Of a stretch of 64,000 bases of DNA, positions 15,068-48,468 are shown piece after piece. This DNA is from Prevotella sp. (GTDB lineage: Bacteria > Bacteroidota > Bacteroidia > Bacteroidales > Bacteroidaceae). Under the pieces are notes generated by a model that saw nothing but the letters and a program-made list of their open reading frames with translations, was not told where the DNA came from and made no database searches. The stretch spans positions 1 to 64,000 of the forward strand of contig JAGAPR010000002.1 of assembly GCA_017623155.1 (NCBI GenBank). The letters are read 5' to 3'. The first letter of the stretch is position 1, and each line of letters starts with the position of its first letter. A program made the translations under genes and the position numbers.

Positions 15068-15155
15068 TGCAATAAGGCCGTAATTGCATTGCATTTACGG
15101 CCTTATTGCGTTCCAATTACGGCCTAATTGGAATGCAATTACGGCCTAATTGGAA
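15068..15155. repeat. Four-unit 22-bp palindromic array, family A
   Basis: Four head-to-tail units start at 15068, 15090, 15112 and 15134, each exactly 22 bp. Each is an imperfect palindrome of the form TGCAAT-TACGGCCTA-ATTGNAN with a central GGCC. Unit 1 is in the opposite orientation (AAGGCCGTAATTG). A second family-A array is at 40219-40306. Confidence 0.85.
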
Positions 15156-15535
15156 ATGAGTAGGGGCTGTAGGGTTTGTAGGAAAGGTAAATTTTGTAGA
15201 TAACAGGCTGATAAACAATATTTTACGCTAAATACTCTGAGAATGCGTTTTTTTCGCCGAGGAAATTATTTTTTGAAAAGAACGCAATTACAAGGCCTTA
15301 TTTTGTAAATATAATATCAAAATATTAACATTTTTGAGATATATTAAGTTAAGTTAAATTACAATATTGCTGTCCGTCAAAAAATAATATAACGTCATAT
15401 CCACCACAAAAAAATCAATTACATCGGGTTTGCAAAAGGGCTTCTAAAAATATCCCCAAAAACAACCGGCAGGGGGCATATTTTGCGCAAGAGTCTTATT
15501 TTGACACACTTTCGAGCCTCAATTCGTTGAACAAC

Positions 15536-15549
15536 ATGATTTTTATCAT
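15536..15549. promoter_or_regulatory. Palindrome upstream of the ATPase promoter
   Basis: ATGAT-TTTT-ATCAT, followed by a looser ATTAT...ATAAT repeat, lies within 50 bp of the -7 element at 15589. A possible operator in very AT-rich DNA where chance palindromes are common. Confidence 0.3.
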
Positions 15550-15588
15550 TTTATGATTATTATATCGTGATAATTATAAAATAATAAT

Positions 15589-15596
15589 TATCTTTG
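15589..15596 (+). promoter_or_regulatory. Predicted -7 element for the 377-aa ATPase gene
   Basis: TATCTTTG, a full TAnnTTTG match, 29 bp before the ATG at 15626. Confidence 0.6.
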
Positions 15597-15625
15597 CAAA
15601 TACATCGGAACAAAATAAATAAATC

Positions 15626-16759
15626 ATGGCAGATATAAGACATACAAACCCGTTTATACTGAGAGGATATGCCGGAAAAGAATATTTCTGCGACAGGATT
15701 GAGGAGACCAAAAGACTGTGTGAAGAAATCGCCAACGGCAACAACGTGGCCATCATAGCCGAGCGTCGCCTCGGAAAAACCGGCCTGATATATCACCTTT
15801 TCAATAGGCCGGAGATAAAAAAACGATACTATACGTTCGTGATAGACATCTACGCAACGAAAAACATACAGGAGATGGTGAACGAAATAGGACGGAACAT
15901 CCTCTCGGAACTCAAACCCATGGGCACGAAAGCCGTGTCGCAGTTTGTCAACATGCTGCAATCTCTGCGCTCGCAGATAACATTCGACGCGGCCGGCACC
16001 CCGACATGGAACGTCGGATTGGGCGACATCAGCACGCCCGACGTCACTCTCGACGAGATTTTCCGCTACCTGTCTGCGGCCGACAAGCACTGCATAGTGG
16101 CGATAGACGAATTTCAAACCATCACCACTTATCCCGAAAAAGGCATTGAGGCACTGCTCCGCACGCACATCCAGCACTGCCACAACGCATCTTTCATTTT
16201 CTCGGGCTCGCGCCGCACAATGATGAGCGAGATTTTTCTGAGCCACGCCCGACCGTTCTATCAGAGCACGTCGATAATGACAATAGGCCCTATCGACAAA
16301 GAGAAGTATGCCGATTTCGCCACGACCATGTTCCGAAAAGGCGACAAGAACATCGACCGCGACACGATATACGGCATATACCGCCGGTTTGACGGCATCA
16401 CGTGGTATGTGCAAAAACTGATGAACAAACTATATTCAATGACCGCCGGCGGCGAGACATGCACTGCCGACATGGCCGAGGCCGCCCTGTCGCAACTCAT
16501 AAGCGACAGTACAGAGGCTTATCAGTTTCTGCTCTATCAACTGCCGGCCAAGCAGAAAGAGCAGCTCTTGGCAATAAGCAAGGCCGGAAAGGCCACGGCA
16601 ATCACTTCGTCGGCATTCGTGAAGAAATACAGACTGCCAAGTCCGAGCAGCGTGCAATCGGCCGTAAAAGGACTGATAGAAAAGGATTTCGTAACCGTAA
16701 ACAAGGATACATACGAAGTTTACGACCGCTTCTTCGCTATCTGGCTCAACCAATTATAA
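15626..16759 (+). CDS. AAA-family ATPase (archaeal-ATPase-like)
   Basis: The 377-residue protein begins HTNPFILRGYAGKEYFCDR, typical of a large family of bacterial and archaeal ATPases annotated simply as ATP-binding protein. The Walker A region is AERRLGKT (45-52), which lacks the first glycine of the usual motif, as is normal in this family. Walker B is IVAIDEF (157-163), and a sensor FSGSRR follows at 192-197. The C-terminal 100 residues look like a winged-helix domain. Role unknown. It stands alone with its own promoter, downstream of the family-A repeat array. Confidence 0.85.
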   Translation: MADIRHTNPFILRGYAGKEYFCDRIEETKRLCEEIANGNNVAIIAERRLGKTGLIYHLFNRPEIKKRYYTFVIDIYATKNIQEMVNEIGRNILSELKPMGTKAVSQFVNMLQSLRSQITFDAAGTPTWNVGLGDISTPDVTLDEIFRYLSAADKHCIVAIDEFQTITTYPEKGIEALLRTHIQHCHNASFIFSGSRRTMMSEIFLSHARPFYQSTSIMTIGPIDKEKYADFATTMFRKGDKNIDRDTIYGIYRRFDGITWYVQKLMNKLYSMTAGGETCTADMAEAALSQLISDSTEAYQFLLYQLPAKQKEQLLAISKAGKATAITSSAFVKKYRLPSPSSVQSAVKGLIEKDFVTVNKDTYEVYDRFFAIWLNQL

Positions 16760-16937
16760 ATCAGATAGAATTAATGAAGTTCTTTTAAGGAGTTGATGGG
16801 TTATCGCTCGCGGAGCTCGCTTGGAGTTAAATACAATACCGTTCAATACTTGAAAGGTAATCATACCTCTTCGTTTTTCACTCTTCGCTCTTCACTTCTC
16901 CCCACCCCGTTGGGAGGAAAGGTCGGGAGGGGTTCCC
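16760..16937. other. Intergenic gap with a GC-rich hairpin
   Basis: This 178-bp gap between convergent genes includes a pyrimidine-rich stretch followed by CCACCCCG...CGGGAGGGG near 16900-16932, which can fold back on itself. Such text recurs between genes in many Bacteroidales. It has no coding potential and no clear U-tract. Confidence 0.4.
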
Positions 16938-17600
16938 TCAGTAAACCGTGATGCTCACATCCGTGCCGGAAGCGTATTTTTTCAACAGCTCGCCAACATA
17001 CCGCGCGTTTGCCGTCACCCGTTCCCCATTGCCGTCGTAGCCGTTTATCAGCACGAGCACGTGCACGGTGTTTATCGTCATCTTGGTGCGTTCGTTGTCG
17101 CTCGTGGGCGTGCCCACACCGCCGGCGGCATCGCGGTAAACGGGCAGACCGGCGATATTGAGCATCCCCCGCCCTATCCCCTCGTATGGCTCGCCCTCGC
17201 GGCCTATGCCGAGCGTGAGCGTGTCGCCCTCGAAGCGGTCGGCATCGAAACCGCCGATGCTGTATCCGTAGGCTATGCTCGCAAGATTGACAAGGTCTAC
17301 AAGTGTGTCTATCCGGTATAACGACTTGCCCTGAATGACACGGCGCATGAGTGCCTCGGCCGCCGGACGATAGCGGCTCGGATCCTTGCCGCAGGCTTTA
17401 TATACACGGCGCGTGGCCTCAATGCCGGGTATCTGCTTTATCGTCTCGGTGGTATGCCCGGCTTTAAACCGCTCGCAAAGAGCGTCGATTTCGCTCCACA
17501 GCGCATCGCTATACTCCGTATTCACCACCCGGGCCTCTACCGCCGCACCCACAAATCCGGGACAAACGGTCTCTATCTCTTTCGATACTGTTATCTGCAT
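16938..17600 (-). CDS. B3/B4 tRNA-binding-domain protein
   Basis: This 220-residue protein matches stand-alone B3/B4 domain proteins, the fold found in the beta subunit of phenylalanyl-tRNA synthetase. The central part (QIPGIEATRRVYKACGKDPS, then RYRPAAEALMRRV) and the late GIGREGEPYEGIG region support this. Stand-alone members are suspected to bind or edit tRNA, but their role is not settled. It starts 12 bp after the end of ligA on the same strand, so it is probably in the ligA transcript. Confidence 0.8.
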   Translation of the reverse strand: MQITVSKEIETVCPGFVGAAVEARVVNTEYSDALWSEIDALCERFKAGHTTETIKQIPGIEATRRVYKACGKDPSRYRPAAEALMRRVIQGKSLYRIDTLVDLVNLASIAYGYSIGGFDADRFEGDTLTLGIGREGEPYEGIGRGMLNIAGLPVYRDAAGGVGTPTSDNERTKMTINTVHVLVLINGYDGNGERVTANARYVGELLKKYASGTDVSITVY

Positions 17601-17612
17601 GTCTCAAAAAAG

Positions 17613-19622
<2,010 letters not shown>

Positions 19623-19778
19623 TTAAATTTAGGCTGGGATAAGGCGGGGCAATTGGTATATACATTACTCACCAACTTATTACCTGATATTCTTGCGTAT
19701 CTTTTCTCATAATCAATTTCCAACAATCATTGTTATAAAAGAATTGTTTTTACCTATATATAAAAACCGTTATGATTG

Positions 19779-19786
19779 CAAAGATA
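19779..19786 (-). promoter_or_regulatory. Predicted -7 element for ligA
   Basis: On the minus strand this reads TATCTTTG. The predicted start near 19772 leaves an unusually long ligA leader of about 160 nt. Confidence 0.55.
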
Positions 19787-19914
19787 CTCAAATTCTTTGA
19801 AAACATTTCACAGACATAATAAAAATGTAATATCGATTGGAAGTGGAATTCTGTATATAATAAGATGTTACAAAGCTGAATACAACAACTGTCGATAATA
19901 CTTTCAGCCGTATA

Positions 19915-19953
19915 AAAAACAGGCGGCAAAGACTTTGACTTGTCTTTGCCGCC
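19915..19953 (-). terminator. Rho-independent terminator of rny
   Basis: A perfect 12-bp stem GGCGGCAAAGAC / GTCTTTGCCGCC (19922-19933 and 19942-19953) with an 8-nt loop is followed on the minus strand by a T-run at about 19915-19920. Confidence 0.8.
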
Positions 19954-19977
19954 GATATACTATATAATAATGTGGTA

Positions 19978-21513
19978 TTATTTAGCGTATGCCACACTAC
20001 GTGTCTCGCGAATGACGGTGATTTTCACCTGTCCGGGATATGTCATCTCGTTCTGTATCTTATCGGCTATCTCACTCGACAGTGCTTCCGTCTGTGCATC
20101 GTCCATCTTGTCGGCACCAACGATAACGCGAAGTTCGCGTCCTGCCTGTATGGCGTATGTCTTGGTAACGCCGGGGTAGCTCATGGCGATAGCTTCGAGG
20201 TCGTTCAATCGTTTGATATATGCCTCGACAATCTCACGGCGTGCGCCGGGACGCGCGCCACTGATGGCATCGCACACCTGCACGATGGGAGCGAGCAACG
20301 TGTTCATCTCGCACTCGTCATGATGCGCAGCAATGGCATTGCAGATGTCGGGTTTCTCGCGATATTTCTCGGCTATCTTCGCTCCATACAATGCGTGGGG
20401 CAGTTCGCTCTCCTCATCAGGCACCTTGCCGATATCGTGCAACAGTCCGGCACGCTTCGCTTTTTTCGGGTTCAGACCGAGTTCAGATGCCATTACGGCG
20501 CAGAGATTTGCTGTCTCGCGGGCATGTTGAAGAAGATTTTGTCCGTAAGAACTGCGGTATTTCATCTTTCCCACGATACGCGTAAGTTCGGGATGTAGTC
20601 CGTGTATACCGAGATCGATTGCCGTGCGCTTTCCGGTCTCGATTACCTCGTTCTCGATTTGTTTTTTCACTTTCTGCACAACTTCCTCAATGCGTGCCGG
20701 GTGTATGCGGCCATCGGCAACGAGCTGGTGCAGGGCAAGGCGGCAAATCTCACGGCGTATGGGGTCGAAAGCACTGATAACGATTGCTTCGGGAGTATCG
20801 TCTACCACGATTTCCACACCTGTGGCGGCTTCGAGAGCCCGTATGTTACGGCCTTCGCGACCGATGATGCGGCCTTTCACTTCATCGTTGTCGATGTGGA
20901 ACACGCTCACACTGTTCTCTATCGCAGTCTCGGTGGCCACTCGCTGTATCGTCTGTATGACAATCTTGCGTGCTTGCGCATTGGCATTGAGCTTCGCTTC
21001 GTCCATTATCTCGTTGATATAACTCTGTGCATCGGTCTTGGCCTCGTCTTTCATGGCCTCCACAAGACGGTGTTTCGCCTCTTCGGCACTGAGTCCTGAC
21101 AGTTCTTCGAGCTTGGCACGCTCTTGAAGTTGCATCTTTTCAAGTTCCTCATTCTTGATTTGCAAGAGTTTTTTCTCGTTGTCTATGCGCACCTGTTGGT
21201 TGTCGAGCTCGTTCTTTCTGCGGCCCAATTCTTCCTGTCGCTGATTTAACGATATCTCACGCTGCTTCAACTTGTTCTCACTCTGCTGGATATGCTGATT
21301 GCGCACCTGCACTTCCTTTTCGAGTTCGCTCTTCTTGTTGAGGAACTTTTCTTTCACTTCGAGGAGTTTTTTCTCTTTCATCACCTCGGCGTCTTTCTCG
21401 GCCAAGGTTATCATCTCGTTATACTTCCCTTTAATTATATATCGGAAAACAAGATATCCGCCAAGCCCTCCTATAATGAGAGCGGCTGCGGCAATAATTA
21501 TTGTTAGTACCAT
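19978..21513 (-). CDS. rny: Ribonuclease Y
   Basis: The 511-residue protein has the RNase Y layout. An N-terminal membrane anchor ([20 protein letters not shown]) is followed by a long coiled coil to about residue 190, a KH RNA-binding domain with [15 protein letters not shown], and an HD hydrolase domain with LLHDIGK and the later AAHHDE metal ligands. It begins mRNA decay by endonucleolytic cleavage at the membrane. It follows zapA by 29 bp on the same strand and ends in a strong terminator. Confidence 0.96.
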
Positions 21514-21542
21514 AAATTAATAATATGTTGTTGTTAATATTC

Positions 21543-21854: not shown

Positions 21855-21862
21855 ATTCCTCA

Positions 21863-24053: not shown

Positions 24054-26603
24054 ATGATAGAAGAAAAGAATAAAATAGAGACGACAGAGACAATAGATTC
24101 CACTGTACAAAACGAACAGGAGAGTTCTTTTGATTTCAGAACCATAATAACCATTTTCATTCTTAACTGGCAATGGTTCGTTTTATCCATGTTCATTTGT
24201 CTGTGCAGCGCCATGATATATCTCAGATATAAGAGCCCGGTATATCAGGTTTCCACCAAAATACTTATTAAAGACGAAAATAAGCCAAAAGGAGGTGGCA
24301 GTAACCAGATGCTCGCAAACATGCAAGAGTTGGGATTCGTATCCAACAGTGCCGGTATTGACAACGAGGTTGAGATACTTCAAAGCCATTTGCTCTCACG
24401 CGAAGCAGTAAGAGACTTGAAATTGTATGTGGAATATAAGATAGAGGGAAGAATTAAGAACCGCCTCATATACAAGACACAACCCATCATCGTTGATATC
24501 GACCCGGCCAGCCTCGAAAAAATGGACGAGACCATGCAGCCGGTAAAATTAAAAATAATAAAAGATAAAGACACATACAAAGTCACCGGTATGGCTTATA
24601 CAAAAGAAGGTACCGAGCGACCGTTCAAAACCACGTTCAGCACTTTTCCGGCCACATTGAAGACATACGCCGGAGTACTTACATTCCGAAAGAACACATT
24701 AAAACCCATATTCGAGACCAAAGAGGATTACGAAAAGTTCATAAACAAAGATCTTTACGTAACAATATATCCGTTATCATATAAAGCGGCTTCGTACGTA
24801 AAGGCTATGTCTGTGGAACCGACCTCAAAGACCACGTCTATCGCTCTCATGACTCTGAAAGACAAGAATGTAGACAGGGCGGAAGATTTCCTCAACCAAC
24901 TCGCTATATGTTATAACCGTCAGGCCAACGCCGACAAGAATGAGATAGCTGTTAAAACCGAGGAATTCATAAACGAACGTCTCGAAAAAATAAACGCCGA
25001 ACTTGATGTGACGGAAAGTTCGTTGGAAACTTACAAGAAGCGCAACAACCTTACGCAGATCAAATTGGACGCGACCGAAAACCTTGCGCAGTCAAGCCAA
25101 TACTCAACAAAATTGTCTGATGCCAAAGCACAGATACAATTACTCGATTATTTACGCGAATATATAGACGACCCGAGAAACAAATACCAGATAATACCTT
25201 CTAACGTAGGACTGGAAGACAACTCGTCGACTACACTTATCAACAAATACAACCAAAGCGTGATAGACCGCAACAAACTGTTACGCACCGCTTCCGAGAT
25301 TGCCCCGCAAGTAATCACTCTTACAGAGACTCTCGACAATCTTTTAAGTAGCATCCGTGTGGCTCTTTCACAAGCACGTCATAGTGCTGATATCAAGCGC
25401 ATGAATATCGAGAATTTGTATTCTCAATATAAAGATAAGATATCAAACACCCCTGAACAAGAACGCGTACTTACGCAAATCGGACGTCAACAAGAAGTTA
25501 AATCGGGCCTTTACCTGATGCTTTTACAGAAGCGCGAAGAGAACTCCATATCTTTGGCCGCCACAGCCGACAAGGGAAAGCTCATCGACGAGCCCATATA
25601 TGAGGGCAAGGTAAGCCCAAAAGGTAGCATCATTCTGCTTGTAGCCTTAGTGGCCGGCTTCGGTATTCCATTGATTGTAATATACCTGTTGCAATTATTG
25701 CGCTACAAGATTGAGGGACATGAAGATGTCGCCAAGCTCACAAATCTGCCTATAATAGCCGATGTGGCTGTTGCCAACGGTAGCGAAGATACCCCCGGCG
25801 GCATTGTCGTACACGAGAACCAGAACGACCAGATAGACGAAATTTTCCGAGCAATGCGAACAAATATACAATTCATGCTCAAAGGAAATCAGCGTGTTAT
25901 CATGTTTACATCATCAACTTCGGGTGAAGGTAAAACGTTCAACGCGGCCAATCTATCTGTATCGTTTGCTCTTCTCGGCAAGAAAGTAATCCTTATGGGT
26001 CTTGATATCCGCAAGCCTGCATTAGGAAAACTGTTCAGAATGTCGGATCGCAGCAAGGGTATAACAACATTGTTATCTAAGGATACGGTGACAATGGAAG
26101 ATATAAGAAGCCAAATTCACCCGTCGGGAGTAAACAAGAACCTTGACTTGATGTTTGCTGGTCCGGTTCCTCCAAACCCGACCGAGCTTCTCGCACGCGA
26201 AAATCTCAGCCAAATCATCAGTATGCTGAAAACCGATTACGACTATATAATACTCGACACAGCACCTGTCGGACTCGTCACCGACACTCTGCAAATAGGC
26301 AAACTCACAGACGTTACCGTAATCGTGTGTCGTGCCGACTACACCCCGAAAGCGGCATTCGGCCTTTTCAACGGCCTTGCAATCGAGAAAAAGCTACCCA
26401 ATATGTGCGTAGTATTGAACGGCGTAGACCTTTCCAAGAAGAAATACGGCTACTATTATGGCTATGGCAAATATGGCAAATACAGTCGTTATGGCAGTTA
26501 CAGGTCATACGGCAGTTACGGCAACTACGGCTCATACGGCAGTTATGGCAACTACTCAAACAGCCATTATGGCAATGCAAACGATAAATCCATAAAGAAA
26601 TGA
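24054..26603 (+). CDS. Polysaccharide chain-length/tyrosine autokinase (Wzz-BY-kinase fusion)
   Basis: This 849-residue inner-membrane protein fuses a Wzz/GNVR co-polymerase part to a bacterial tyrosine kinase. A first membrane helix is near residues 42-62, a large periplasmic coiled-coil domain follows, and a second helix lies near 523-545. The kinase has Walker A (SGEGKT 623-628), Walker A' with Asp651 (GLDIRKP) and Walker B with Asp735 (IILDTAP). The tail carries 16 tyrosines at 798-839 in YG/GSYG repeats, the autophosphorylation cluster. It controls polymer length and export of capsule or exopolysaccharide. It overlaps the next gene by 4 bp. Confidence 0.93.
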   Translation: MIEEKNKIETTETIDSTVQNEQESSFDFRTIITIFILNWQWFVLSMFICLCSAMIYLRYKSPVYQVSTKILIKDENKPKGGGSNQMLANMQELGFVSNSAGIDNEVEILQSHLLSREAVRDLKLYVEYKIEGRIKNRLIYKTQPIIVDIDPASLEKMDETMQPVKLKIIKDKDTYKVTGMAYTKEGTERPFKTTFSTFPATLKTYAGVLTFRKNTLKPIFETKEDYEKFINKDLYVTIYPLSYKAASYVKAMSVEPTSKTTSIALMTLKDKNVDRAEDFLNQLAICYNRQANADKNEIAVKTEEFINERLEKINAELDVTESSLETYKKRNNLTQIKLDATENLAQSSQYSTKLSDAKAQIQLLDYLREYIDDPRNKYQIIPSNVGLEDNSSTTLINKYNQSVIDRNKLLRTASEIAPQVITLTETLDNLLSSIRVALSQARHSADIKRMNIENLYSQYKDKISNTPEQERVLTQIGRQQEVKSGLYLMLLQKREENSISLAATADKGKLIDEPIYEGKVSPKGSIILLVALVAGFGIPLIVIYLLQLLRYKIEGHEDVAKLTNLPIIADVAVANGSEDTPGGIVVHENQNDQIDEIFRAMRTNIQFMLKGNQRVIMFTSSTSGEGKTFNAANLSVSFALLGKKVILMGLDIRKPALGKLFRMSDRSKGITTLLSKDTVTMEDIRSQIHPSGVNKNLDLMFAGPVPPNPTELLARENLSQIISMLKTDYDYIILDTAPVGLVTDTLQIGKLTDVTVIVCRADYTPKAAFGLFNGLAIEKKLPNMCVVLNGVDLSKKKYGYYYGYGKYGKYSRYGSYRSYGSYGNYGSYGSYGNYSNSHYGNANDKSIKK

Positions 26604-29430: not shown

Positions 29431-30030
29431 ATGATGAAATTTAAAAGTATGACCGATGAAGAATTGGCCTTACTATATGTTAAAGGAGACAACAAGGCTT
29501 TTGATGAGTTATTGGCACGCAATCAATCAAAGTTGTTTACATATATAATGTTCGTGGTCAGAGATCAGGAACTGGCAAACGATTTGTTTCAAGACACGTT
29601 CGTGAAAGTGATAACGAAGTTGCAGGAAGGCAAATACACCGACTCCGGCAAATTCTCGTATTGGATAACGCGAATTGCCCACAACGTTATCATGGACTGG
29701 TACAGAATGCAGAAGAACGAACATATCGTGGAACCTACTGAAGACAACGACCTCTCCAACTTGAACGAGAACTCCGTGATAGACATAAGTATCGAGTCGG
29801 AAATAGTGAACAGTCAGATTATGACAGATGTCAAGCGCATGATGAACAATCTGCCTACACCGCAGCGCGAAGTTGTTTACATGCGGTTCTATCAAGATAT
29901 GTCGTTCAAGGAAATCGCGGAAGTGACCGGTGTGAGCATCAACACCGCTCTCGGCCGCATGAGATATGCCATCATCAACCTCAGACGCATGGCGCAAGAG
30001 CACGACATTTTGCTCAAAATGGAAGCGTGA
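29431..30030 (+). CDS. RNA polymerase sigma factor, ECF type
   Basis: This 199-residue protein has sigma region 2 (ALLYVKGDNKAFDELL through DLFQDTFVKV and FSYWITRIAHNVIMDWYR) and region 4 (LPTPQREVVYMRFYQDMSFK with the helix-turn-helix EIAEVTGVSINTALGR). No anti-sigma factor lies next to it. It is monocistronic, with a 22-bp repeat array directly after its stop codon. Met2 is an equally good start. Targets unknown. Confidence 0.93.
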   Translation: MMKFKSMTDEELALLYVKGDNKAFDELLARNQSKLFTYIMFVVRDQELANDLFQDTFVKVITKLQEGKYTDSGKFSYWITRIAHNVIMDWYRMQKNEHIVEPTEDNDLSNLNENSVIDISIESEIVNSQIMTDVKRMMNNLPTPQREVVYMRFYQDMSFKEIAEVTGVSINTALGRMRYAIINLRRMAQEHDILLKMEA

Positions 30031-30047: not shown

Positions 30048-30135
30048 TGTTACGCGGCCCGGGTAACATCGTTACTTGGGCCGCGTAACATCGTTACTAC
30101 GGCCAAATCACATTGTTACTCGGACCGTGTAACAA
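30048..30135. repeat. Four-unit 22-bp palindromic array, family B
   Basis: Four adjoining units start at 30048, 30070, 30092 and 30114, each exactly 22 bp. The general form is TGTTAC-N10-GTAACAT around a GGCC-type centre. Unit 3 is the least symmetric (GTTAC...ATCAC). The array fills the gap between the converging sigma factor and rpe genes. A second family-B array is at 48381-48468. Confidence 0.88.
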
Positions 30136-30147
30136 AAACAAAAACGT

Positions 30148-30795
30148 TTATAGCATCTTAAGTTCGTGTATTGTCTGCTCGGGAGATTTGCTCTTGAACA
30201 CATAACTGCCGCTCACGAGCACATCAACACCGGCACGCACAAGTCTCGGAGCCGTTCCGGCATCCACTCCTCCGTCTACTTCTATCAATGCGTTCGAGCC
30301 GCTCTGCCGTATCATCTCACGCATGCGCCCTACTTTCGCAATGGTGTTTTCGATGAATGCCTGCCCCCCAAATCCGGGATTCACACTCATCAGCAATACC
30401 AAATCCACGTCACTGATAATATCTTCGAGCATGCTCACGGGCGTAGACGGGTTGAGCGTCACGCCGGCTTTCATGCCTGCCTCATGTATCTCGTGTATCG
30501 TGCGGTGCAGGTGTGTGCATGCCTCGAAGTGAACATTCATCATCATCGCGCCCGAGCGAGCCGTTTCTGCTATATATCGCTCGGGATGAACAATCATGAA
30601 ATGCACGTCGAGCGGTTTGCGACACACTTTCGACACGGCTTTCATTATGGGAAATCCGTACGAGATGTTAGGCACGAAAACGCCGTCCATCACGTCTATA
30701 TGAAGCCAGTCGGCCTCACTGCGGTTTATCATTTCTATCTCGCTGTCGAGATGAAGAAAGTCGGCGGCGAGAAGTGACGGAGATACTATTGTCAT
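30148..30795 (-). CDS. rpe: Ribulose-phosphate 3-epimerase
   Basis: This 215-residue TIM-barrel enzyme interconverts ribulose-5-phosphate and xylulose-5-phosphate in the pentose phosphate pathway. It has the family signatures VSPSLLAADF, HIDVMDGVFVPN, LDVHFMIVHPE, SVNPGFGGQ and a late EVDGGVD. Length is normal. It starts 10 bp after the 42-aa ORF and is the last gene of the leftward cluster. Confidence 0.96.
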   Translation of the reverse strand: MTIVSPSLLAADFLHLDSEIEMINRSEADWLHIDVMDGVFVPNISYGFPIMKAVSKVCRKPLDVHFMIVHPERYIAETARSGAMMMNVHFEACTHLHRTIHEIHEAGMKAGVTLNPSTPVSMLEDIISDVDLVLLMSVNPGFGGQAFIENTIAKVGRMREMIRQSGSNALIEVDGGVDAGTAPRLVRAGVDVLVSGSYVFKSKSPEQTIHELKML

Positions 30796-39951: not shown

Positions 39952-40218
39952 TATAAAAAAAATGGAGATGGTAGCACGGAATATGAAAAATATCTGACGA
40001 CAGATAACATTTAACATTTACCGTAGTTTTTGGTTAAATATACATAAATTAAATGTCAAAAATTAATATGTTAACGTCGCCAAGAATGCCCTTCGTCTGA
40101 AAAAATCTTCTCGAGCTCGCAAATACGCGAATTATGGAGCATTTCGTGTAAATATTTGTATATAAGATATTTACAGAGATTTAATCCGTTTTTTAGCGCA
40201 TTTAAGATCGTCTTGTTT

Positions 40219-40306
40219 TCCAATTAGGCCGTAATTGGAATGCAATTACGGCCTAATTGCACTCCCGTTAGGCCGTAAACGCAGTGCAATTACGGCCTTA
40301 TTGCAA
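40219..40306. repeat. Four-unit 22-bp palindromic array, family A (second copy)
   Basis: Units start at 40219, 40241, 40263 and 40285, each exactly 22 bp, with GGCC centres and ATTAC/GTAAT flanks as in the array at 15068. Orientation alternates (GGCCGTAATTG, then TTACGGCCTAATTG). The third unit has diverged most (CCCGTTAGGCCGTAAACG). Confidence 0.85.
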
Positions 40307-40512
40307 GGCAATAATGTACAAAAAGGAGAAAAGACCGACATGCAATTGTTTACGAATATTAAATAATCATCTTTTGAGTTAAATATTTTAAGTTAATAAA
40401 ACCTACTTCACAAAAATCTTTTGTCACGGGTTTTTACTTTTTGTTTGCATATTTTAAGTTAAACAGAAAGATATTGTGTTAAAGGGAGTATTTATGAGTT
40501 AAGGCCGGGATG

Positions 40513-40606: not shown

Positions 40607-40723
40607 ATGAATTACATTATAAATAACAAATAAATTAGGTTAAATTTATTTGTCAGAAAAAAAGTAATGGACTTATTTTCAAAAAAAGCACGCCCGACAT
40701 CGTTTTATCCGATAACATTTGCG

Positions 40724-40731
40724 TATATTTG
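40724..40731 (+). promoter_or_regulatory. Predicted -7 element of the DUF6359 lipoprotein gene
   Basis: TATATTTG with a start expected near 40738, which places the start codon at 40751 rather than 40667 or 40736. Confidence 0.55.
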
Positions 40732-40750
40732 CAACATGCAAATTCACAAA

Positions 40751-41260
40751 ATGAGACATTTCAAATTCCTGATATTGCTTTTCGCCATGCTGACAGCCGC
40801 ATGCGAGAAAGCATACATACCGAGCGATGACCAACAGACAAACGGCGGCAATACCGACGACGAATGGCACGAAACATGGGAGACTGACAGTACCGAAAAA
40901 CGATGCCTCACCGTGGCGGAAGCCATCGAGGCCGAGACCGGCAGGGTGATATCGGTAAGGGGATATATCGTAGGGTCCACATCGAGAAGCATGCGAAACG
41001 CAAAATATCTGCCGCCGTTCGAAAGCAAAACGGCACTGATACTTTCCGATTACAAGCTCACTGAGTGCGAGGGATTCTATGAGGATGAACTCCTGCCGGT
41101 ACGCATCGGCGACTTCAATCAGTATTTAGACGCGCTCAACCTCGTGGATAATCCGCAACACTTCGAAAAGCTTACCGTAATAACAGGGATTAAAGACATG
41201 TATCTCGGACAGCCCGGCATAAAACTGATACTGTGGTGCGACCTACTGGAACAACAGTAA
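40751..41260 (+). CDS. DUF6359-type lipoprotein
   Basis: From the Met at 40751 (MRHFKFLILLFAMLTAACEK) the protein is 169 residues with a lipoprotein signal peptide and lipobox LTAAC. The mature part begins with an acidic linker and then LTVAEAIEAETGRVISVRGY, the start of the DUF6359 domain, probably an OB-like fold. The frame is open further upstream to 40667, but the promoter element at 40724-40731 and the signal peptide favour 40751. It is probably surface- or periplasm-anchored. Function unknown. It precedes the pectin locus but has its own terminator. Confidence 0.8.
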   Translation: MRHFKFLILLFAMLTAACEKAYIPSDDQQTNGGNTDDEWHETWETDSTEKRCLTVAEAIEAETGRVISVRGYIVGSTSRSMRNAKYLPPFESKTALILSDYKLTECEGFYEDELLPVRIGDFNQYLDALNLVDNPQHFEKLTVITGIKDMYLGQPGIKLILWCDLLEQQ

Positions 41261-41403: not shown

Positions 41404-41411
41404 TATCTTTG
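41404..41411 (+). promoter_or_regulatory. Predicted -7 element of the pectinase fusion gene
   Basis: TATCTTTG, 105 bp before the ATG at 41516, just after the terminator. The leader is about 98 nt. Confidence 0.6.
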
Positions 41412-41515
41412 CAGAAGATAGGCGGCATAAGTTCCGCCGATAGCGGCCGCAAGCACAAACGCCGCTATACCAATCATAAATTAAAAACTAATAACTATAA
41501 ACAATTTTCAACGAC

Positions 41516-44500
41516 ATGAGACTATTTAAACTAATGCTTCTGTGTCTGTTGTTTCCGGCACTGGCTCAGGCCGACGACTGGACTACAATGTACAAGCAGA
41601 TAGAACAGAGCATCAAGCAACCGGAGTTTGCCAACCGTGATTTCAACATCACGAAGTATGGTGCGGGCACCAACGCCAAGGCTGCCGTAAACCAAAAAGC
41701 GATAAACAAGGCCATCGCTGCCTGCTCGAAGGCAGGCGGCGGACGGGTCATCGTGCCCGCAGGAACATACAACACGGGAGCCATCACCCTGCTGAGCGGC
41801 GTCAACCTCGTGGTGGAGAAGGGCGCAACGCTGCAGTTTGTGTTCGAGCCTGAGCTCTACCCCATCGTCCTCACACGCTGGGAGGGCCTCGACTGCTGGA
41901 ACCTCCAGCCCTGCATCTACGCCTACAAGCAGAAGAACATCGCCATCACCGGCGAGGGAACGATTGACGGCGGCGGCACCAACGAGACATGGTGGAAATG
42001 GTGCGGCGCGCCGAGATACGGATGGAAGGAAGGCGTCATCAGCCAGCGCAACGGCAGCCGCGCACGCCTGCTGAAGATGGCCGAGGACGGAGTGGACATG
42101 AACGAACGCCGCTTCGGACCGCAAGACGGCCTCCGCCCGCAGCTCATCAACATCAACACGTGTGAGAACATACTGATAGAGAACGTCACGCTGCTGCGCT
42201 CTCCGTTCTGGGTCATCCACCCGCTGCTCTCGAAGAACATCACCGTGCGCGGCGTGCACATCAACAACGACGGCCCCAATGGCGACGGATGCGACCCCGA
42301 GTCGTGCGACGGCGTGCTGATAGAAAACTGCTTCTTCAACACGGGTGACGACTGCATCGCCATCAAGAGCGGACGCAACAACGACGGACGCCTGTGGAAC
42401 AAGCCGAGCGAGAACATCATCATCCGCAACTGCGAGATGCAGAACGGACACGGAGGCGTGGTCATCGGCAGCGAGATTTCCGGCGGATGCCGCAACGTCT
42501 TCGCCGAGAACAACGTCATGGACAGCCCCAACCTCGACCGCGTGATACGCATAAAGACGAACACCTGCCGCGGAGGAGTCATCGAGAACATATATGCACG
42601 CAACATAAAGGTTGGCCAGTGCGGCGAGTCGGTGCTGAAGATTAACCTCGACTACGAGCACAACGAGATATGCTGCCGCGGCTATCTGCCGACGGTGCGT
42701 AACGTGAACCTCGACAACGTGACGTGCGAGAAGAGCCGCTACGGCGTGCAGATAATCGCACTCGACACATGCACGAACGTATACGACATCAACGTGAAGA
42801 ACTGCCGCTTCAACGGCGTGGCCGAAGGAAACACCATAAAGGGACAGACACGCGGCATAAACTTCGACAACCTCTACATCAACGGCGGACTGAGCCTGCT
42901 CAACAAGCCGTACAAGAACTACAGCCAGTGGATGACGGCATCGGAGATGAAGCGCTACCCGAAGTCTTATCTGCTTGACTTCTCGAAGCGCCCGAAGTGG
43001 AGCTACGTGATGGGCATCGAGCTGGAGGCCATGCTCGACACATATCTGAAATATGGCGGCGAGGACATAAAGAACTACTGCCAGATGTATACCGACACGA
43101 TGATCAACGCCAAGGGCGACATCCGCGGATACAGACTTGAAGACTACAACCTCGACCAGATACGCACGGGCCACTTTGTGGCACGCATGTACCAGCTGTA
43201 CCCCGAGAAGAAGAACCTCATCGCGCTGCAAACGCTCATGAAGCAGCTGAAAAATCAGCCCCGCACGGAGGACGGGGTGTTCTGGCATAAGGCCATATAC
43301 TCATATCAGGTGTGGCTCGACGGTATCTTCATGGGACTGCCCTACTACACAATGACGGCTAACATGCTGCTCAAAGACAAGAAGGCGCAGGCCATTTACG
43401 ACGACGCCGTAGACCAGATCAAGAAGACATACGAGCGCACGCTCGACGCCAAGACCGGACTGAACCGCCACGCATGGGACGAGACACGTGACATGTTCTG
43501 GGCCGACAAGACTACCGGACTGTCGCAGCACTGCTGGGGACGCGCGCAGGGATGGTATACGATGGCGCTCATCGAGCTGCTCGACGCACTGCCCGAGAAC
43601 TACAGCCGCCGCGGCGAGGTTATCGAACTGCTGAAGAAAGACCTCGACGCCGTCATCAAATGGCAGGACAAGAAGAGCGGCGTATGGTATCAGGTGATGG
43701 ACAGCCCTGACCGCAAGGGCAACTATCTCGAGTCTACATGCTCGTCGATGTTCACCTACGCGCTGCTGAAGGCTTACCGCAAGGGATACCTCGGAGCGAA
43801 ATACCGCGACGCGGGAATACGTGCCTACAAGGGCATCATCAACAACTTCATAAAGGTTAACCCCGACAGCACCATCTCGCTGACACACTGCTGCGCCGTG
43901 GCCGGACTGGGTCCGGGCATGAGCGACAAGGTGAAGGCCGCCACGGACAAGTATGGAATGAAGCTGAAGGAGAACAAGCGCCGCGACGGTTCATACGACT
44001 ACTACCTCAGCGAGCAGGTGCGCGACAACGATGCCAAGGGCGTAGGACCGTTCATCTGGGCTTCGCTCGAGATGGAGGCATTGGGATATGACACGGACAA
44101 CGCCACGACAGGCATCAACCGCCAGGCCGTGGTGACACGCAACAACCCGGTGGTGACCGAGGCAGACCCGCTCGCCTCGCTCACCGTGGGCAACGGACAC
44201 TTCGCCACGACGGTAGACGTCACCGGACTGCAGAGCTACCCTTTTGACTACGAGGCAGGTGTGCCTCTCAACGCAATGTCGGACTGGGGATGGCATTCGT
44301 TTGAAAACACTGCAGCACTGACGCCCGCCGAAACCGAGAAGGCGTATGACTTCGGACACGGACGCAAGGAGGTCTATGCCGTGGAATACAAGCAGGCAGG
44401 ACGCAACAAGGACGCCACGGAGTATTTCCGGGTGAACCCGCACCGCCTGAACCTCGGCACGATAGGTCTCGAACTGACCGGCGCAGACGGCAAGCAGATT

Positions 44501-46273
44501 CCCCTCAAGGAACTGAAGAACATCCGTCAGGAGCTGGCTCTCTGGGACGGAACAATAGAATCGAAGTTCACCGCCGACGGAACACCCGTCGAGGTGACGA
44601 CGGCCTGCATGGCAAACAAAGACTGCCTCTTCTCGAGAGTGAAGACGGGACTGCTCTCAAAGGGCCGCGCCGCCGTGTCGTTCAAGTTCTCTTACCCCTC
44701 GGGCAAGCACGCCGACGACGCCAACGACTGGACAAAGCCGGAGCGCCACAAGTCTGTAATCATCGCCTCTACCGACCGTTCGGCTACAATCGAGCGCACG
44801 ATAGACGCAACGAAATACTATGTTCTGCTGGAATGGGAAGGCAACGCCACACTGAAAGAGACGGCACCGCACCACTTCACACTCTCGTCGGCCGACGACG
44901 TGCTGTCGTTCAGCGCCGAGTACAGGGAGAAGAACGATGCCAAGAAAGCCGACGTGTCTTACTCATACGACCAAGCATTGAAAGCCGTGATGAAGCACTG
45001 GCCGAGATTTTGGAACGCCGGCGCCATCGTAGACTTCTCCGAGTGCACCGACCCGAGAGCGGCAGAACTCGAACGCCGCACGGTTCTCTCGCAATATCTC
45101 ACGGCCATCAACTGCGCCAACACCACCCCACCGCAGGAGACCGGACTGACATATAACTCATGGTTCGGCCGCCCGCACCTCGAGATGACATGGTGGCACG
45201 CCGTCGACTTCGCTCTCTGGAAGCGCCCGGAGGTCGTGGCCACGATGCTCGACTGGTACAACAAGACGGCCCTGCCCATATCCAAGAAGATAGCAGAGCG
45301 TCAGGGATTCAAGGGCGCACGATGGATGAAGATGACCGACCCGTGGGGCGGCGAGTCTCCGTCGAACGTGGGTTCGTTCCTCACATGGCAGCAGCCACAT
45401 TATATATATATGGCGGAGGAGATGTACCGGGCCAATCCCACAAAGGAGACGCTCGCCAAATACGCCGAGGGCGTGGAGCAGACGGCTCTCTTCATGGCCG
45501 ACTTCGCCAAGGCATGCGCTCCCAAGAAAGGCGACATCAAGCTCTTCGGACAGACCGCCATGCAGGAATCCATGTCTAAGGACTTCTCATTCAACCACCC
45601 GTTCGAGCAGGTTTACTGGCACTACGGACTGACAACGGCACAGAAGTGGCGCGAGCGCCGCGGACTGGAGCGCGACAGCGAGTGGGACGACATCATTGCA
45701 CGCATGGCCCCGCTGGCCGAGAAAGACGGACGCTACATGTCGGGCGAGCCCACAGTCACTTTCGACCCGAAGGCAAAGAGCGCCGGCTTTGACCCGTTCA
45801 AGAGTGCCGAGCAGGGCGGAAAGAAGCAGATTTCCGAAGAAGACTTCGCCCTGAAATCGCGCTCAGACCACCCCGCAGTGCTCGGAGCATGCGGCCTGCT
45901 GCCCGCCACGGGCCAGTATGACGCAGCTACGATGAAGCGCACGCTCAACTGGGTGATGGACAACTGGAACTGGGACACCACATGGGGATGGGACTACGGC
46001 ATGATAGCAATGTGCGCCGCACGCCTCGGCGAGGGCGACACCGCCGTGAAGGCACTGCTCATCGACAAGGGCAAGAACACCTACCTCATCAGCGGACACA
46101 ACTATCAGGAGCCCAAGCGCCTGCGCCTCTACCTGCCGGGCAACGGCTCGCTGCTCGACGCCGTGGCCATGATGTGCGCCGGATGGGACGGATGCAAGGA
46201 CGTGCTCAACCCCGGATTCCCGAAAGACGGACGCTGGAATGTGCGCTGGGAGGGTATCCAAAGAATGCAATAG
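41516..46273 (+). CDS. Three-part secreted pectinase: GH28 - GH105 - six-hairpin domain
   Basis: This 1585-residue secreted protein has a signal peptide (MRLFKLMLLCLLFPALAQA). Residues ~25-460 are a GH28 polygalacturonase with Asp252 (NNDGPNGDG), Asp278-Asp279 (GDDCIAIKSG), His312 (GHGG) and RIK at 345-347. Residues ~490-860 are a GH105 unsaturated glucuronyl/galacturonyl hydrolase, with YQVWLDGIFMGLPYY (Asp602) and WGRAQGWYTMAL. Residues ~880-1585 form a beta-sandwich plus (alpha/alpha)6-barrel part, with GHFATTVDV, RPHLEMTWWHAVDFALW and a C-terminal NWNWDTTWGWDYG. This part recalls GH65/GH95-like enzymes, but I cannot name the family. Together they would cleave and trim unsaturated pectin fragments. 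No T9SS-like tail. Confidence 0.85.
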   Translation: MRLFKLMLLCLLFPALAQADDWTTMYKQIEQSIKQPEFANRDFNITKYGAGTNAKAAVNQKAINKAIAACSKAGGGRVIVPAGTYNTGAITLLSGVNLVVEKGATLQFVFEPELYPIVLTRWEGLDCWNLQPCIYAYKQKNIAITGEGTIDGGGTNETWWKWCGAPRYGWKEGVISQRNGSRARLLKMAEDGVDMNERRFGPQDGLRPQLININTCENILIENVTLLRSPFWVIHPLLSKNITVRGVHINNDGPNGDGCDPESCDGVLIENCFFNTGDDCIAIKSGRNNDGRLWNKPSENIIIRNCEMQNGHGGVVIGSEISGGCRNVFAENNVMDSPNLDRVIRIKTNTCRGGVIENIYARNIKVGQCGESVLKINLDYEHNEICCRGYLPTVRNVNLDNVTCEKSRYGVQIIALDTCTNVYDINVKNCRFNGVAEGNTIKGQTRGINFDNLYINGGLSLLNKPYKNYSQWMTASEMKRYPKSYLLDFSKRPKWSYVMGIELEAMLDTYLKYGGEDIKNYCQMYTDTMINAKGDIRGYRLEDYNLDQIRTGHFVARMYQLYPEKKNLIALQTLMKQLKNQPRTEDGVFWHKAIYSYQVWLDGIFMGLPYYTMTANMLLKDKKAQAIYDDAVDQIKKTYERTLDAKTGLNRHAWDETRDMFWADKTTGLSQHCWGRAQGWYTMALIELLDALPENYSRRGEVIELLKKDLDAVIKWQDKKSGVWYQVMDSPDRKGNYLESTCSSMFTYALLKAYRKGYLGAKYRDAGIRAYKGIINNFIKVNPDSTISLTHCCAVAGLGPGMSDKVKAATDKYGMKLKENKRRDGSYDYYLSEQVRDNDAKGVGPFIWASLEMEALGYDTDNATTGINRQAVVTRNNPVVTEADPLASLTVGNGHFATTVDVTGLQSYPFDYEAGVPLNAMSDWGWHSFENTAALTPAETEKAYDFGHGRKEVYAVEYKQAGRNKDATEYFRVNPHRLNLGTIGLELTGADGKQIPLKELKNIRQELALWDGTIESKFTADGTPVEVTTACMANKDCLFSRVKTGLLSKGRAAVSFKFSYPSGKHADDANDWTKPERHKSVIIASTDRSATIERTIDATKYYVLLEWEGNATLKETAPHHFTLSSADDVLSFSAEYREKNDAKKADVSYSYDQALKAVMKHWPRFWNAGAIVDFSECTDPRAAELERRTVLSQYLTAINCANTTPPQETGLTYNSWFGRPHLEMTWWHAVDFALWKRPEVVATMLDWYNKTALPISKKIAERQGFKGARWMKMTDPWGGESPSNVGSFLTWQQPHYIYMAEEMYRANPTKETLAKYAEGVEQTALFMADFAKACAPKKGDIKLFGQTAMQESMSKDFSFNHPFEQVYWHYGLTTAQKWRERRGLERDSEWDDIIARMAPLAEKDGRYMSGEPTVTFDPKAKSAGFDPFKSAEQGGKKQISEEDFALKSRSDHPAVLGACGLLPATGQYDAATMKRTLNWVMDNWNWDTTWGWDYGMIAMCAARLGEGDTAVKALLIDKGKNTYLISGHNYQEPKRLRLYLPGNGSLLDAVAMMCAGWDGCKDVLNPGFPKDGRWNVRWEGIQRMQ

Positions 46274-46337
46274 CATGACACGACAGCAATAGACGACATG
46301 GATTTTCAACCATGACACATACACAAAAACATAACAC

Positions 46338-46402
46338 AAAGCGGCAAGGAAGATATTTCTGTATATGAATAATATATAAGCGATACCCTCCTTGTCGCTT
46401 TT
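46338..46402 (+). terminator. Possible terminator or attenuator hairpin
   Basis: AAAGCGGCAAGGA (46338-46350) pairs with TCCTTGTCGCTTT (46389-46401) over 13 bp, with one G-U pair and a 38-nt loop. The large loop makes it a weak terminator; no TAnnTTTG element follows before the PL1 gene, so read-through is likely. Confidence 0.4.
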
Positions 46403-46517
46403 CACATTCCTGAAACTACACAATAATCAGGCCGAAACACCGTTATTATTAATAAAATACGACGCAATAGCACATAAATCACGGCGAAAAAAGAGAACAA
46501 TAACAAAAATAACGTAA

Positions 46518-48305
46518 ATGAAAAAACTATTACTTACTGCGGCAATCACAGCCATTACAGGAGCGGCAACAGCTCAAACACCGGCTTTCCCCGGTGCCGA
46601 GGGACACGGACGATACGTGACAGGCGGACGGGGTGGCAAAGTCATACACGTCACCAACCTCAACGACAGCGGCACAGGCTCGTTCCGCTCTGCCGTGAGC
46701 GGAAACAGCAAGAAAATCGTCGTCTTTGACGTGGCCGGCGTGATACCGCTCAAGTCGGATTTGACGATAGGTGAAAACACCACAATCGAGGGACAGACTG
46801 CTCCCGCACCCGGCATCACCCTGCGCTACTACACCGTGCGCCCGGGCAAGAACAACGTGATAAGGTTCATACGCTCGCGCCGCGGACAAGAAAAGGACAT
46901 CAACGACGGCGCCGACGCTATCTGGAACAAGAACAAGACCGGCATCATGCTCGACCACTGCTCGTTCAGCTGGAGCATCGACGAGGTGGCATCGTTCTAC
47001 GACAACAACAACTTCACCATGCAGTGGTGCACCATCGCCGAGAGCCTCAGCAACCCCGGACACAGCAAGGGCGCACACGGATACGGCGGTATATGGGGCG
47101 GCAAACTGGCCAGCTTCCACCACAACCTTATTGCCAGCGTGACCAACCGCGGCCCGCGCTTCAACGGCGCACGCTACGGATGGACGGGATATACCAGCAA
47201 CTACGACTACAACACGTATAAATGGGAGAACCCGGCGCAGGCCGAGAACGTGGACTTCCGCAACTGCGTGATGTTCAACTGCCCCGGAGCATGCTACGGC
47301 GGACCCGGCGGAGGACAGATAAACATCGTCAACAACTACTACAAGGCCGGCAACAGCGGCGTGGGCAACCAAGAGCGCATCACGCTGGTGACGGTTTCTT
47401 CATCGGGAAACTCAGACAGCAAACATCCGGAATACTACGGCATGACAAGCCGCTACTACATCTCGGGCAACACCACTGAGACATCGACAGGAACGAAAAA
47501 GAAGAACCGCGACTGGGCCGGAGTGAGCTACGACAAGGGAGTATACACCCAGAACGGCTCTACTTACTCGGAAGACAAGAACAACATGTACGGCGACAAG
47601 GTGCCGCACACAACCATCAGCGGCAAGTCGTGCGTCAACGTGAAGCTGGACGAGCCGGCCCCCACAGGTGAGGTGACCACGCACACGGCCGAAAACGCAT
47701 TCAGTCAGGTGCTGGCCTACGCCGGAGCATCGCTCCACCGCGACGACGTGGACGCCCGCTACATGGAGGAGGCCAAGACAGGAAAGGCTAAATACAAAGG
47801 CTCCGTCACCGGAAAGTGGGGACTCATCGACCTCGTGTCCGACGTCAACGGATACACCGAGGAGAACTTCGGCACCGGTGAGCACCCCGCAGGCTTTGAC
47901 ACCGACAAAGACGGAATACCCGACGCATGGGAGACAGCCAACGGTCTGAACCCGAACGACGCCACTGACGCCGCCAAGACAACCATCGACCCGAAAGGAT
48001 GGTACTCAAACATCGAGGTATACTGCAACAGTCTGGTGCAGGATATAATGACAGGCGGAAACACAAACGCCACCTCTACGGTGAACGAATACTACCCGCG
48101 GTATGTCAAGGAAGACGGCACCGTAGTGGAAGCCATCGGAGGCGGTGTTGACGCCATCATGAACATAAACTCAGATAAAGTGGTGGCCACGGAATACTAC
48201 AACACACAGGGTATGCGCGTATCTCCCGACACGAAAGGCATAATTATAAAAGTGTCCGTACTCAGCGGCGGAAAGAAGATAAGCCGCAAGATGGTGAACA
48301 AATAA
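46518..48305 (+). CDS. Secreted pectate lyase (PL1-like)
   Basis: The 595-residue protein has a signal peptide (MKKLLLTAAITAITGAATAQ) and a parallel beta-helix of the PL1 type: FPGAEGHGRYVTGGRGGKV, GQTAPAPGITL, DHCSFSWSIDEV and NRGPRFNGARYG, whose arginine is in the catalytic region. A calcium-binding-like segment DTDKDGIPDAWETANG lies near 455-470. The C-terminus (EYYNTQGMRVSPDTKGIIIK then a basic end) resembles a T9SS sorting tail. It cleaves de-esterified homogalacturonan by beta-elimination, giving unsaturated ends that the GH105 domain next door can remove. Tandem with the fusion gene. Confidence 0.88.
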   Translation: MKKLLLTAAITAITGAATAQTPAFPGAEGHGRYVTGGRGGKVIHVTNLNDSGTGSFRSAVSGNSKKIVVFDVAGVIPLKSDLTIGENTTIEGQTAPAPGITLRYYTVRPGKNNVIRFIRSRRGQEKDINDGADAIWNKNKTGIMLDHCSFSWSIDEVASFYDNNNFTMQWCTIAESLSNPGHSKGAHGYGGIWGGKLASFHHNLIASVTNRGPRFNGARYGWTGYTSNYDYNTYKWENPAQAENVDFRNCVMFNCPGACYGGPGGGQINIVNNYYKAGNSGVGNQERITLVTVSSSGNSDSKHPEYYGMTSRYYISGNTTETSTGTKKKNRDWAGVSYDKGVYTQNGSTYSEDKNNMYGDKVPHTTISGKSCVNVKLDEPAPTGEVTTHTAENAFSQVLAYAGASLHRDDVDARYMEEAKTGKAKYKGSVTGKWGLIDLVSDVNGYTEENFGTGEHPAGFDTDKDGIPDAWETANGLNPNDATDAAKTTIDPKGWYSNIEVYCNSLVQDIMTGGNTNATSTVNEYYPRYVKEDGTVVEAIGGGVDAIMNINSDKVVATEYYNTQGMRVSPDTKGIIIKVSVLSGGKKISRKMVNK

Positions 48306-48328
48306 AACTTTTAAAAGTAAAAAGGTAG

Positions 48329-48373
48329 AAAGCCATGCGGATAGCTTATACAGTAATCCGCATGGCTTTTTTT
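48329..48373 (+). terminator. Rho-independent terminator after the PL1 gene
   Basis: AAAGCCATGCGGAT / ATCCGCATGGCTTT, a perfect 14-bp stem followed by a T-run, 24 bp after the stop codon. It ends the first pectinase transcript. Confidence 0.88.
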
Positions 48374-48380
48374 ATTGAAA

Positions 48381-48468
48381 TGTTACGCGGCCGGCGTAAC
48401 ATCGTGACAACGGCCAAATCACAATGTTACAACAGCCGTGTAACATCATTACTACGGCCGAGTAACAC
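48381..48468. repeat. Four-unit 22-bp palindromic array, family B (second copy)
   Basis: Units start at 48381, 48403, 48425 and 48447, each exactly 22 bp. Unit 1 is nearly the same as unit 1 of the array at 30048. Unit 2 (GTGAC...ATCAC, with GGCCAAATCACA) matches unit 3 of that array. The array starts 8 bp after a terminator. Confidence 0.88.

Follow-up and report, generated by a model that had tools for sequence, protein, structure and literature searches.

Quasi-regularly spaced arrays of 22-bp palindromes in a Prevotella genome as candidate docking platforms for a dimeric protein

Four palindrome arrays in the window

The stretch of DNA analyzed here (64,000 bp, contig JAGAPR010000002.1 of the Prevotella sp. 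assembly GCA_017623155.1; the window) carries four arrays of short palindromes, each 88 bp long and composed of four abutting 22-bp units. They had first been noticed in an inspection of the window alone (the original prediction) and were found exactly where it had placed them (Table 1). Nearly all units had been described as centred on GGCC, and 14 of the 16 indeed contain a centred GGCC, the exceptions being unit 4 of the array at 30048 (GGACC) and unit 3 of the array at 48381 (CAGCC). In its register each unit is an odd-centred palindrome of 21 bp plus one spacer base, with 8-bp arms and a 5-bp centre (e.g., CGGCC or GGCCG). Using a structure scan which scores arm complementarity alone at period 22, 27, 23, 28, and 24 of 32 arm pairs were found in the four arrays. 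These were the top four structure-only peaks of the window, while all other peaks reached at most 20; in 20 block-shuffled windows the highest peak was 22, reached twice. The two sequence families proposed for the arrays are real, with the arrays at 15068 and 40219 forming family 2 (subfamilies 2a and 2b) and those at 30048 and 48381 family 1. The units abut with a spacing of 1 bp and do not follow the plan of clustered regularly interspaced short palindromic repeats (CRISPR), i.e., repeats with unique spacers. No match to Rfam was obtained in the window at gathering score.

Table 1. Arrays, carrier repeats, and neighboring genes in the window.
Feature	Position	Strand	Basis
Tyrosine recombinase (Phage_int_SAM_5, Phage_integrase), left neighbor of the 15068 array	13600..14838	-	
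Carrier repeat 2a, ~450 bp, approximate extent	14904..15349	+	alignment of 29 copies
Family-2a array, 4 x 22 bp, four GGCC centres	15068..15155	+	structure scan; further core copies in genome
ATPase_2 family protein, right neighbor of the 15068 array	15626..16759	+	
Sigma factor (Sigma70_r2, r4_2), left neighbor of the 30048 array	29431..30030	+	
Family-1 array, 4 x 22 bp, three of four GGCC centres	30048..30135	+	
Ribulose-phosphate 3-epimerase, right neighbor of the 30048 array	30148..30795	-	
Carrier repeat 2b, ~470 bp, approximate extent	40015..40485	-	alignment of 36 copies
Family-2b array, 4 x 22 bp, four GGCC centres; carrier reads on - strand	40219..40306	-	
DUF6359 protein, right neighbor of the 40219 array	40667..41260	+	
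595-aa protein without Pfam match, left neighbor of the 48381 array	46518..48305	+	
Family-1 array, 4 x 22 bp, three of four GGCC centres	48381..48468	+	
Pectinesterase-domain protein, right neighbor of the 48381 array	48600..51761	+	

By reading, the array at 48381 was found directly 3' of a terminator-like hairpin with a T-run. Apart from the arrays, tandem repeats of 9/18/27 bp were observed at 26463-26555 within a long open reading frame (ORF; 24054-26603), probably encoding a repetitive protein segment.

Copies, spacing, and carriers in the source genome

The source genome (G000) is a draft of 2.74 Mb in 104 contigs, 84% complete. The closest named ribulose-phosphate 3-epimerase (rpe) proteins are those of Prevotella (83% at best), and on sequence grounds the genome is a Prevotella relative. 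A pattern of three GGCC at distances of 21-23 bp occurred 261 times, compared to 7 times for the reversed control. Family 1 was found at ~40 places among the matches listed, together with a few arrays of other families (covariance model from 13 arrays; 150 of 418 candidates scored, 93 rows with both strands counted). For family 2, 80 scored full-length matches were obtained, 40 each with the 2a query and the query from the 40219 array; 40 of ~120 candidates were scored in each search, the listing favors full-length copies, and several matches at contig ends could be one physical copy seen twice. These family-level counts are partial. Many of the 2a cores were identical.

Exactly four units per array had been predicted, along with a constant period, and a genome-wide tabulation had been suggested as the check. 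The 22-bp period held over the copies and is the constant feature. Four units proved usual for families 1 and 2 without being fixed. In family 1, one of 39 arrays (L032) has a fifth unit and another (L080) a degenerate fourth one. Applied to four contig stretches totalling 852 kb with 62 listed arrays, a strict unit test found a clean run of four in 48 arrays, five units in two (C42:124928, C99:78916), and six units in two arrays of families 3 and 4, while the remaining ten were interrupted by a weak unit or by a shift of one base. Among the other five-unit rows, L198 represented one real array seen in several frames and strands, and L215 was unconfirmed by the strict test. The same test, which is blind to position, revealed 12 unlisted two-unit runs. 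Three of them resemble families 2, 3, and 4 and were on this ground accepted as arrays (C42:149841, family 2b; C102:50308; C102:127378), the other nine being chance-like. Unit number also varies in other species. In the 2a carriers described below, in-phase half-like stretches such as TGCAATTATTCGGGG were noticed by reading just outside the array, hence the four units of 2a may represent the retained central part of an array that was longer.

In order to describe the placement of the arrays along the chromosome, contigs C42 and C89 were combined with 81 kb of C99 and the initial 180 kb of C102 (851.6 kb in total). The 62 arrays (17 of family 1, 41 of family 2, and 4 others) comprise structure hits of at least 22 plus the model and DNA matches; hits of 20-21 that did not resemble the units were excluded. 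The 58 spacings showed a mean of 13.2 kb, a coefficient of variation (CV) of 0.37, a minimum of 6.1 kb, and a maximum of 30.1 kb. Random placement in intergenic gaps of at least 150 bp (20,000 draws) yielded a CV of 0.875 (lowest 0.557) and a mean of 19 spacings below 6 kb (lowest 8), compared to none observed. Under a uniform hard-core model excluding 6 kb the CV was 0.537, and none of 2000 draws reached 0.37. Furthermore, the families exclude each other, as none of the 17 family-1 arrays was located less than 6 kb from a family-2 array (null mean 8.5). All three two-unit arrays lie in gaps of more than 19 kb, which account for 23% of the length; their acceptance preceded the spacing computation, but the wide gaps were already known. 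With them included, 65 arrays and 61 spacings resulted (mean 12.5 kb, CV 0.33, minimum 6.1 kb, maximum 24.4 kb), with corresponding CVs of 0.873 (lowest 0.547) for random and 0.511 for hard-core placement, the latter with a P of 0.0005 for the longest gap. This check adds regularity and at the same time loosens the count of four. Leaving out families 3 and 4 gave a CV of 0.39 (54 spacings), family 2 alone a CV of 0.43, and the other G000 contigs, with incomplete array lists, a CV of 0.49 for 56 spacings, one of them below 6 kb. Overall, with families pooled, the arrays of G000 are quasi-regularly spaced at ~13 kb. The three widest gaps were inspected for GC content and ORF starts; one was low in GC, two were unremarkable, and the widest holds a two-unit array. 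The widest remaining gap (C42 100.7-124.9 kb, 24 kb) showed a GC content of 0.433 versus 0.467 for the contig and is possibly a recent insertion.

Family-2 arrays reside in longer carrier repeats. In an alignment of 29 copies of the 2a carrier, identity fell to the background level around -165 and +280. The core showed 98% identity and the flank bins 61-89%, except for a second strongly conserved block at -120 to -100 from the core (TGCGACTTGAAGTCACCGTT) with 96%. The 36 copies of the 2b carrier behaved alike, with a core of 93%, flank bins of mostly 58-79%, and one block of 93% at -104 to -84 (GAAGTAGGTTTTGTTAACTT). Cores are consequently better kept than most of their carriers. The 2b consensus has the termini TTTAACAT...ATGTTAAA; the ends of 2a were less clear-cut. 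Family 1 is a ~90-bp form without leader or tail, many copies of which have short GAAA/TTTC-like inverted flanks; inspection of these flanks by eye showed no evident target-site duplication. Of 60 genus genomes, only its own contained a match to the 2a left flank, and an exact 26-mer of the 2a core, used as a check for phage carriage, had no match in viral contigs. Of 74 classified rows, eight were flagged for a mismatch of carrier and core. Two of them were accepted, L185 (C8:118.8 kb) and L188 (C11:32.6 kb), which by reading carry 2a flanks on both sides of a 2b-like middle core, while the rest look like loose matching. Since these two mix a 2a carrier with a 2b-like core, array cores seem able to move between carriers.

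Judged by simple long-ORF calls, 59 of the 62 arrays were clear of ORFs, two overlapped ORFs of less than 100 aa, and one overlapped a gene call by 17 bp. Of the 41 family-2 arrays on the four contigs 40 could be oriented, and 22 of these lie between divergent genes; divergent gaps make up 73 of the 257 intergenic gaps of at least 100 bp. Gaps of at least 400 bp held an array in 43 of 70 cases. Arrays directly behind rpe were found in 2 of 80 named Prevotellaceae loci (L281, L289), which is about chance by a rough estimate, and no rpe-adjacent pattern is claimed. Two identical family-1 arrays with nearly identical flanks (L003 and L015; C20:41152-41239 and C99:65200-65287) reflect either a recent duplication or assembly redundancy. 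Many G000 contigs end in arrays, with a family-2 array at the start or end of contigs C3, C8, C11, C21, C23, C26, C39, C85, C90, and C93. The arrays therefore probably break short-read assemblies of this species.

A shared geometry in changed letters

Other genomes were analyzed, one per species, by searching for palindrome centres at an 11-bp period irrespective of their sequence (threshold 36 of 63). The hits numbered 60 for G000 (852 kb), 17 for G001 (400 kb), 20 for G016 (200 kb), and 3 for G010 (139 kb), and a few of them are AT-rich and doubtful. Periods of 8-10 and 12-15 bp gave 0-2 hits per genome sample. The 80 named Prevotellaceae loci, 917 kb in total, yielded 27 period-11 hits spread over 24 loci; other periods yielded 0-3, and a shuffle a single one. 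Several of the weakest hits resemble chance matches in AT-rich sequence, and at threshold 38 the count was 20 versus 0-1. Sampling 258 kb of 16 genomes from the other families of the order produced no period-11 hit, and 200 kb of Escherichia coli gave one hit at threshold 36 and none at 38. A model built from G016 arrays (19 of 20 arrays used, then one more, 21845, left out) matched at least 111 places in G016, with 150 of 1581 candidates scored. In the parts of G000 and G001 compared for conservation of array positions, few orthologues were shared. Two congeners showed other repeats. G070 (L107 and others) has a different high-copy repeat, GGCCATTTTTCTGAGATTTTTGGCC, with a 21-bp GGCC ladder. 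In G048 (C34:98011 and C89:76694) tandem direct repeats with GGCC ladders were found (GGCCTTTCTCCCGGTTAGGTAC and others), possibly unrelated.

A comparison of 102 arrays, 56 of them from G000, revealed one order of strong and weak bases within an 11-bp half-site, consisting of an A/T run of about five and a G/C-rich centre. The letters filling this half-site differ by species (TGTTACGCGGCC, TGCAATTACGG, TGTAATCAGGCC, TGTAATTTGACGC, TGCAAAAGACGGCC). The 11/22-bp design thus recurs across Prevotellaceae, with its letters changed. Family-1 dyads were complementary at 87% of the A/T and 79% of the G/C positions, compared to ~50% expected from class matching alone; as detection favors dyads, these values are upper estimates. 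The phasing was observed inside the array and did not clearly extend into the flanks of 17 family-1 arrays. The four window arrays folded far better than shuffled sequences (z -3.7 to -9.8), with a predicted fold that varied from two 44-nt hairpins over one 88-nt hairpin to mixed forms. Covariation was sought in 13 arrays, and pair counts were not above those of shuffles. G.T and A.C mismatches were close overall (118 versus 105), while their ratio varied between arrays beyond expectation (chi2 66.6, 39 df). A conserved RNA fold was rejected, since no single hairpin is common to the arrays. What is kept is the alternating half-site geometry and not one hairpin, which favors recognition of double-stranded DNA by a protein of two-fold symmetry.

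Possible roles of the arrays

We consider it quite possible, somewhat short of probable, that the arrays are docking platforms for about four protein dimers, with intergenic repeats as their carriers and a spacing that is maintained in the service of chromosome organization. Each array would be a platform of double-stranded DNA with usually eight 11-bp half-sites in strictly alternating orientation, whose four dyads, two helical turns apart, would place four dimers of one sequence-specific protein on roughly one face. MITE-like (miniature inverted-repeat transposable element) intergenic repeats would carry these platforms, as a ~90-bp form in family 1 and as ~450-bp forms in 2a and 2b. Intervals of ~13 kb would be kept because the chromosome needs one platform, of any family, about once per domain. 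We infer a role as anchor of loops or topological domains, organizing or insulating the nucleoid. The half-site letters would turn over between species together with the DNA-binding protein, while the 11/22-bp geometry stays.

A structural or protein-binding role rather than slippage had been argued for in the original prediction. Simple slippage does not give a constant period and near-constant unit number over diverged sequence, and to this extent the argument stands. Part of the constancy, however, is explained by common descent, as many family-2 copies lie in ~450-bp repeats with near-identical cores, and binding is a prediction. The statement that no described element has this plan agrees with our literature search, which found none and left most subscription journals uncovered. 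Palindromic candidate RNAs of human microbiomes are reported in one study (PMC8040213), and single arrays may be among them.

Several observations weigh against docking platforms at kept intervals. Without the three two-unit arrays the longest gap fits the 6 kb exclusion model (P 0.057), and family 1 alone is not regular (CV 1.1, 13 spacings). G016, with its at least 111 arrays, has no overall regularity (CV 1.15 among the matches listed), although its 11 spacings below 6 kb are fewer than the 20.8 of uniform placement. G001 showed a CV of 0.54 from 12 spacings, with three AT-rich scan hits omitted (1579, 1867, and 60043); from the G016 scan hits one (93492) was likewise omitted. An even spacing can accordingly be claimed for G000 alone. 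The G/C dyad value of family 2 was only 48%, due to its CGGCC being off register, and the near-identity of the 2a copies suggests mobility in addition to function. Finally, no protein partner was found. Lrp/AsnC regulators can form octamers of four dimers on phased palindromic sites and were considered for this reason. The 22 Lrp-type proteins aligned came from 30 loci, including one of the two of G000 and none from G016, and their recognition helix was nearly invariant within each class. An Lrp/AsnC octamer site was rejected, because these helices, too alike across species, hardly change while the half-sites do. In G000 an Lrp/AsnC gene adjoins a 2a array at a contig end (C23:653-871), an adjacency which may be chance in view of the recognition helix conserved across the genus.

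The main rival, which we regard as rather unlikely, sees the arrays as selfish mobile repeats resembling MITEs or repetitive extragenic palindromes (REPs) and mobilized by a putative transposase, with a four-unit plan copied by descent, a spacing set by transposition immunity, and no cellular role. Copy number and identical 2a cores (some of the contig-end matches maybe being duplicates), the restriction of the 2a left flank to its own genome, the 2b ends, and the GAAA/TTTC-type inverted flanks of family 1 would all suit such repeats, and a minimum spacing of ~6 kb is what immunity would give. However, families 1 and 2 exclude each other despite different half-sites, and the spacing is more regular than in the 6 kb hard-core model. 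The better kept core, the lack of target-site duplications evident by eye in family-1 flanks, and the recurrence of the 22-bp plan in other species in unlike letters also speak against it.

Two known repeat classes come close to the arrays. BrickBuilt is a repeat of Porphyromonas gingivalis, a member of the same order as Prevotella. It is reported as a minisatellite MITE present in 19 copies of 1 to 22.8 units each, with a 23-nt unit and no BLASTn matches outside its own species (PMC4596501). Like BrickBuilt, the 2a and 2b carriers, but not family 1, are intergenic and place a leader and a tail around abutting short units. In contrast, the units here are 22-bp dyads, usually four (two to six in G000), in ~120 evenly spaced listed arrays, and further species have this plan with letters of their own. 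The structure scan of the four G000 contigs gave 48 hits at period 22 versus 1 at 23, the BrickBuilt unit length. REPs and bacterial interspersed mosaic elements (BIMEs) share with the arrays a high copy number of extragenic palindromes, alternating orientation, and a suggested role in chromosome organization (PMC2817692, PMC3733652). The strict 22-bp period and regular spacing differ from the REPs of E. coli MG1655, which are reported to have no clear periodicity in placement (PMC12306157). The GTAG/CGTC tag of REPs was not noticed in the aligned family-1 units or unit listings by reading, for which no dedicated scan was run. The Y1 transposase associated with REPs (RAYT, PF01797), the only transposase type searched, was absent from G000, which at 84% completeness is not final, and present in 34 of 60 genus genomes. 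With no Y1 transposase in G000 a RAYT partnership was rejected.

Less likely still, and in our view improbable, are strong sites of DNA gyrase or another wrapping protein that reads DNA shape, where one A/T and one G/C run per turn over ~88 bp would favor wrapping and the arrays would serve supercoil management in the manner of E. coli BIME-2, but at even spacing. The common order of strong and weak half-site bases over the 102 arrays would be expected for such sites. Bacterial supercoil domains are of the order of 13 kb, the mean array spacing, which counts for it as well. In the E. coli gyrase motif G/C recurs with a period of 10.75 bp across 130 bp, and BIME-2 elements behave like strong gyrase sites (PMC6379681); the inside of the arrays likewise shows a symmetric and helically phased G/C pattern, of similar length. 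Shape readout, however, needs no base-level dyads, yet family 1 keeps them, and the half-sites of the arrays are species-specific whereas the E. coli motif is degenerate (PMC6379681). Moreover, the periodicity is not clearly present in the family-1 flanks and is partly forced by the alternating design. Least likely of the rivals, and very improbable, is a structured RNA or transcription-level hairpin (terminator, mRNA stabilizer, small RNA), for which the folding of the window arrays, the position of some directly after gene ends (30048, 48381), and the variable G.T:A.C ratio can be cited, but which is countered by folds differing from array to array, near-equal overall mismatch counts, covariation not above shuffles, the many family-2 arrays between divergent genes, and the missing Rfam match.

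Returning to docking platforms, extragenic palindromes have long been suggested as organizers of bacterial chromosomes. Here, a genome with quasi-evenly spaced palindrome arrays and a bacterial family in which the 22-bp design outlives its sequence make the question testable, via the protein bound and via the arrays as loop or supercoil boundaries. An answer would moreover yield candidate domain-boundary elements for abundant gut bacteria. A further-reaching proposal, which we think unlikely as it stands, is that the chromosomes of Prevotellaceae are partitioned by a dedicated, lineage-specific system, in which a fast-evolving dimeric protein on the arrays would anchor loops or supercoils about every 13 kb, with the geometry fixed and the letters turning over in concert. 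Such a system would be a bacterial counterpart of insulator arrays.

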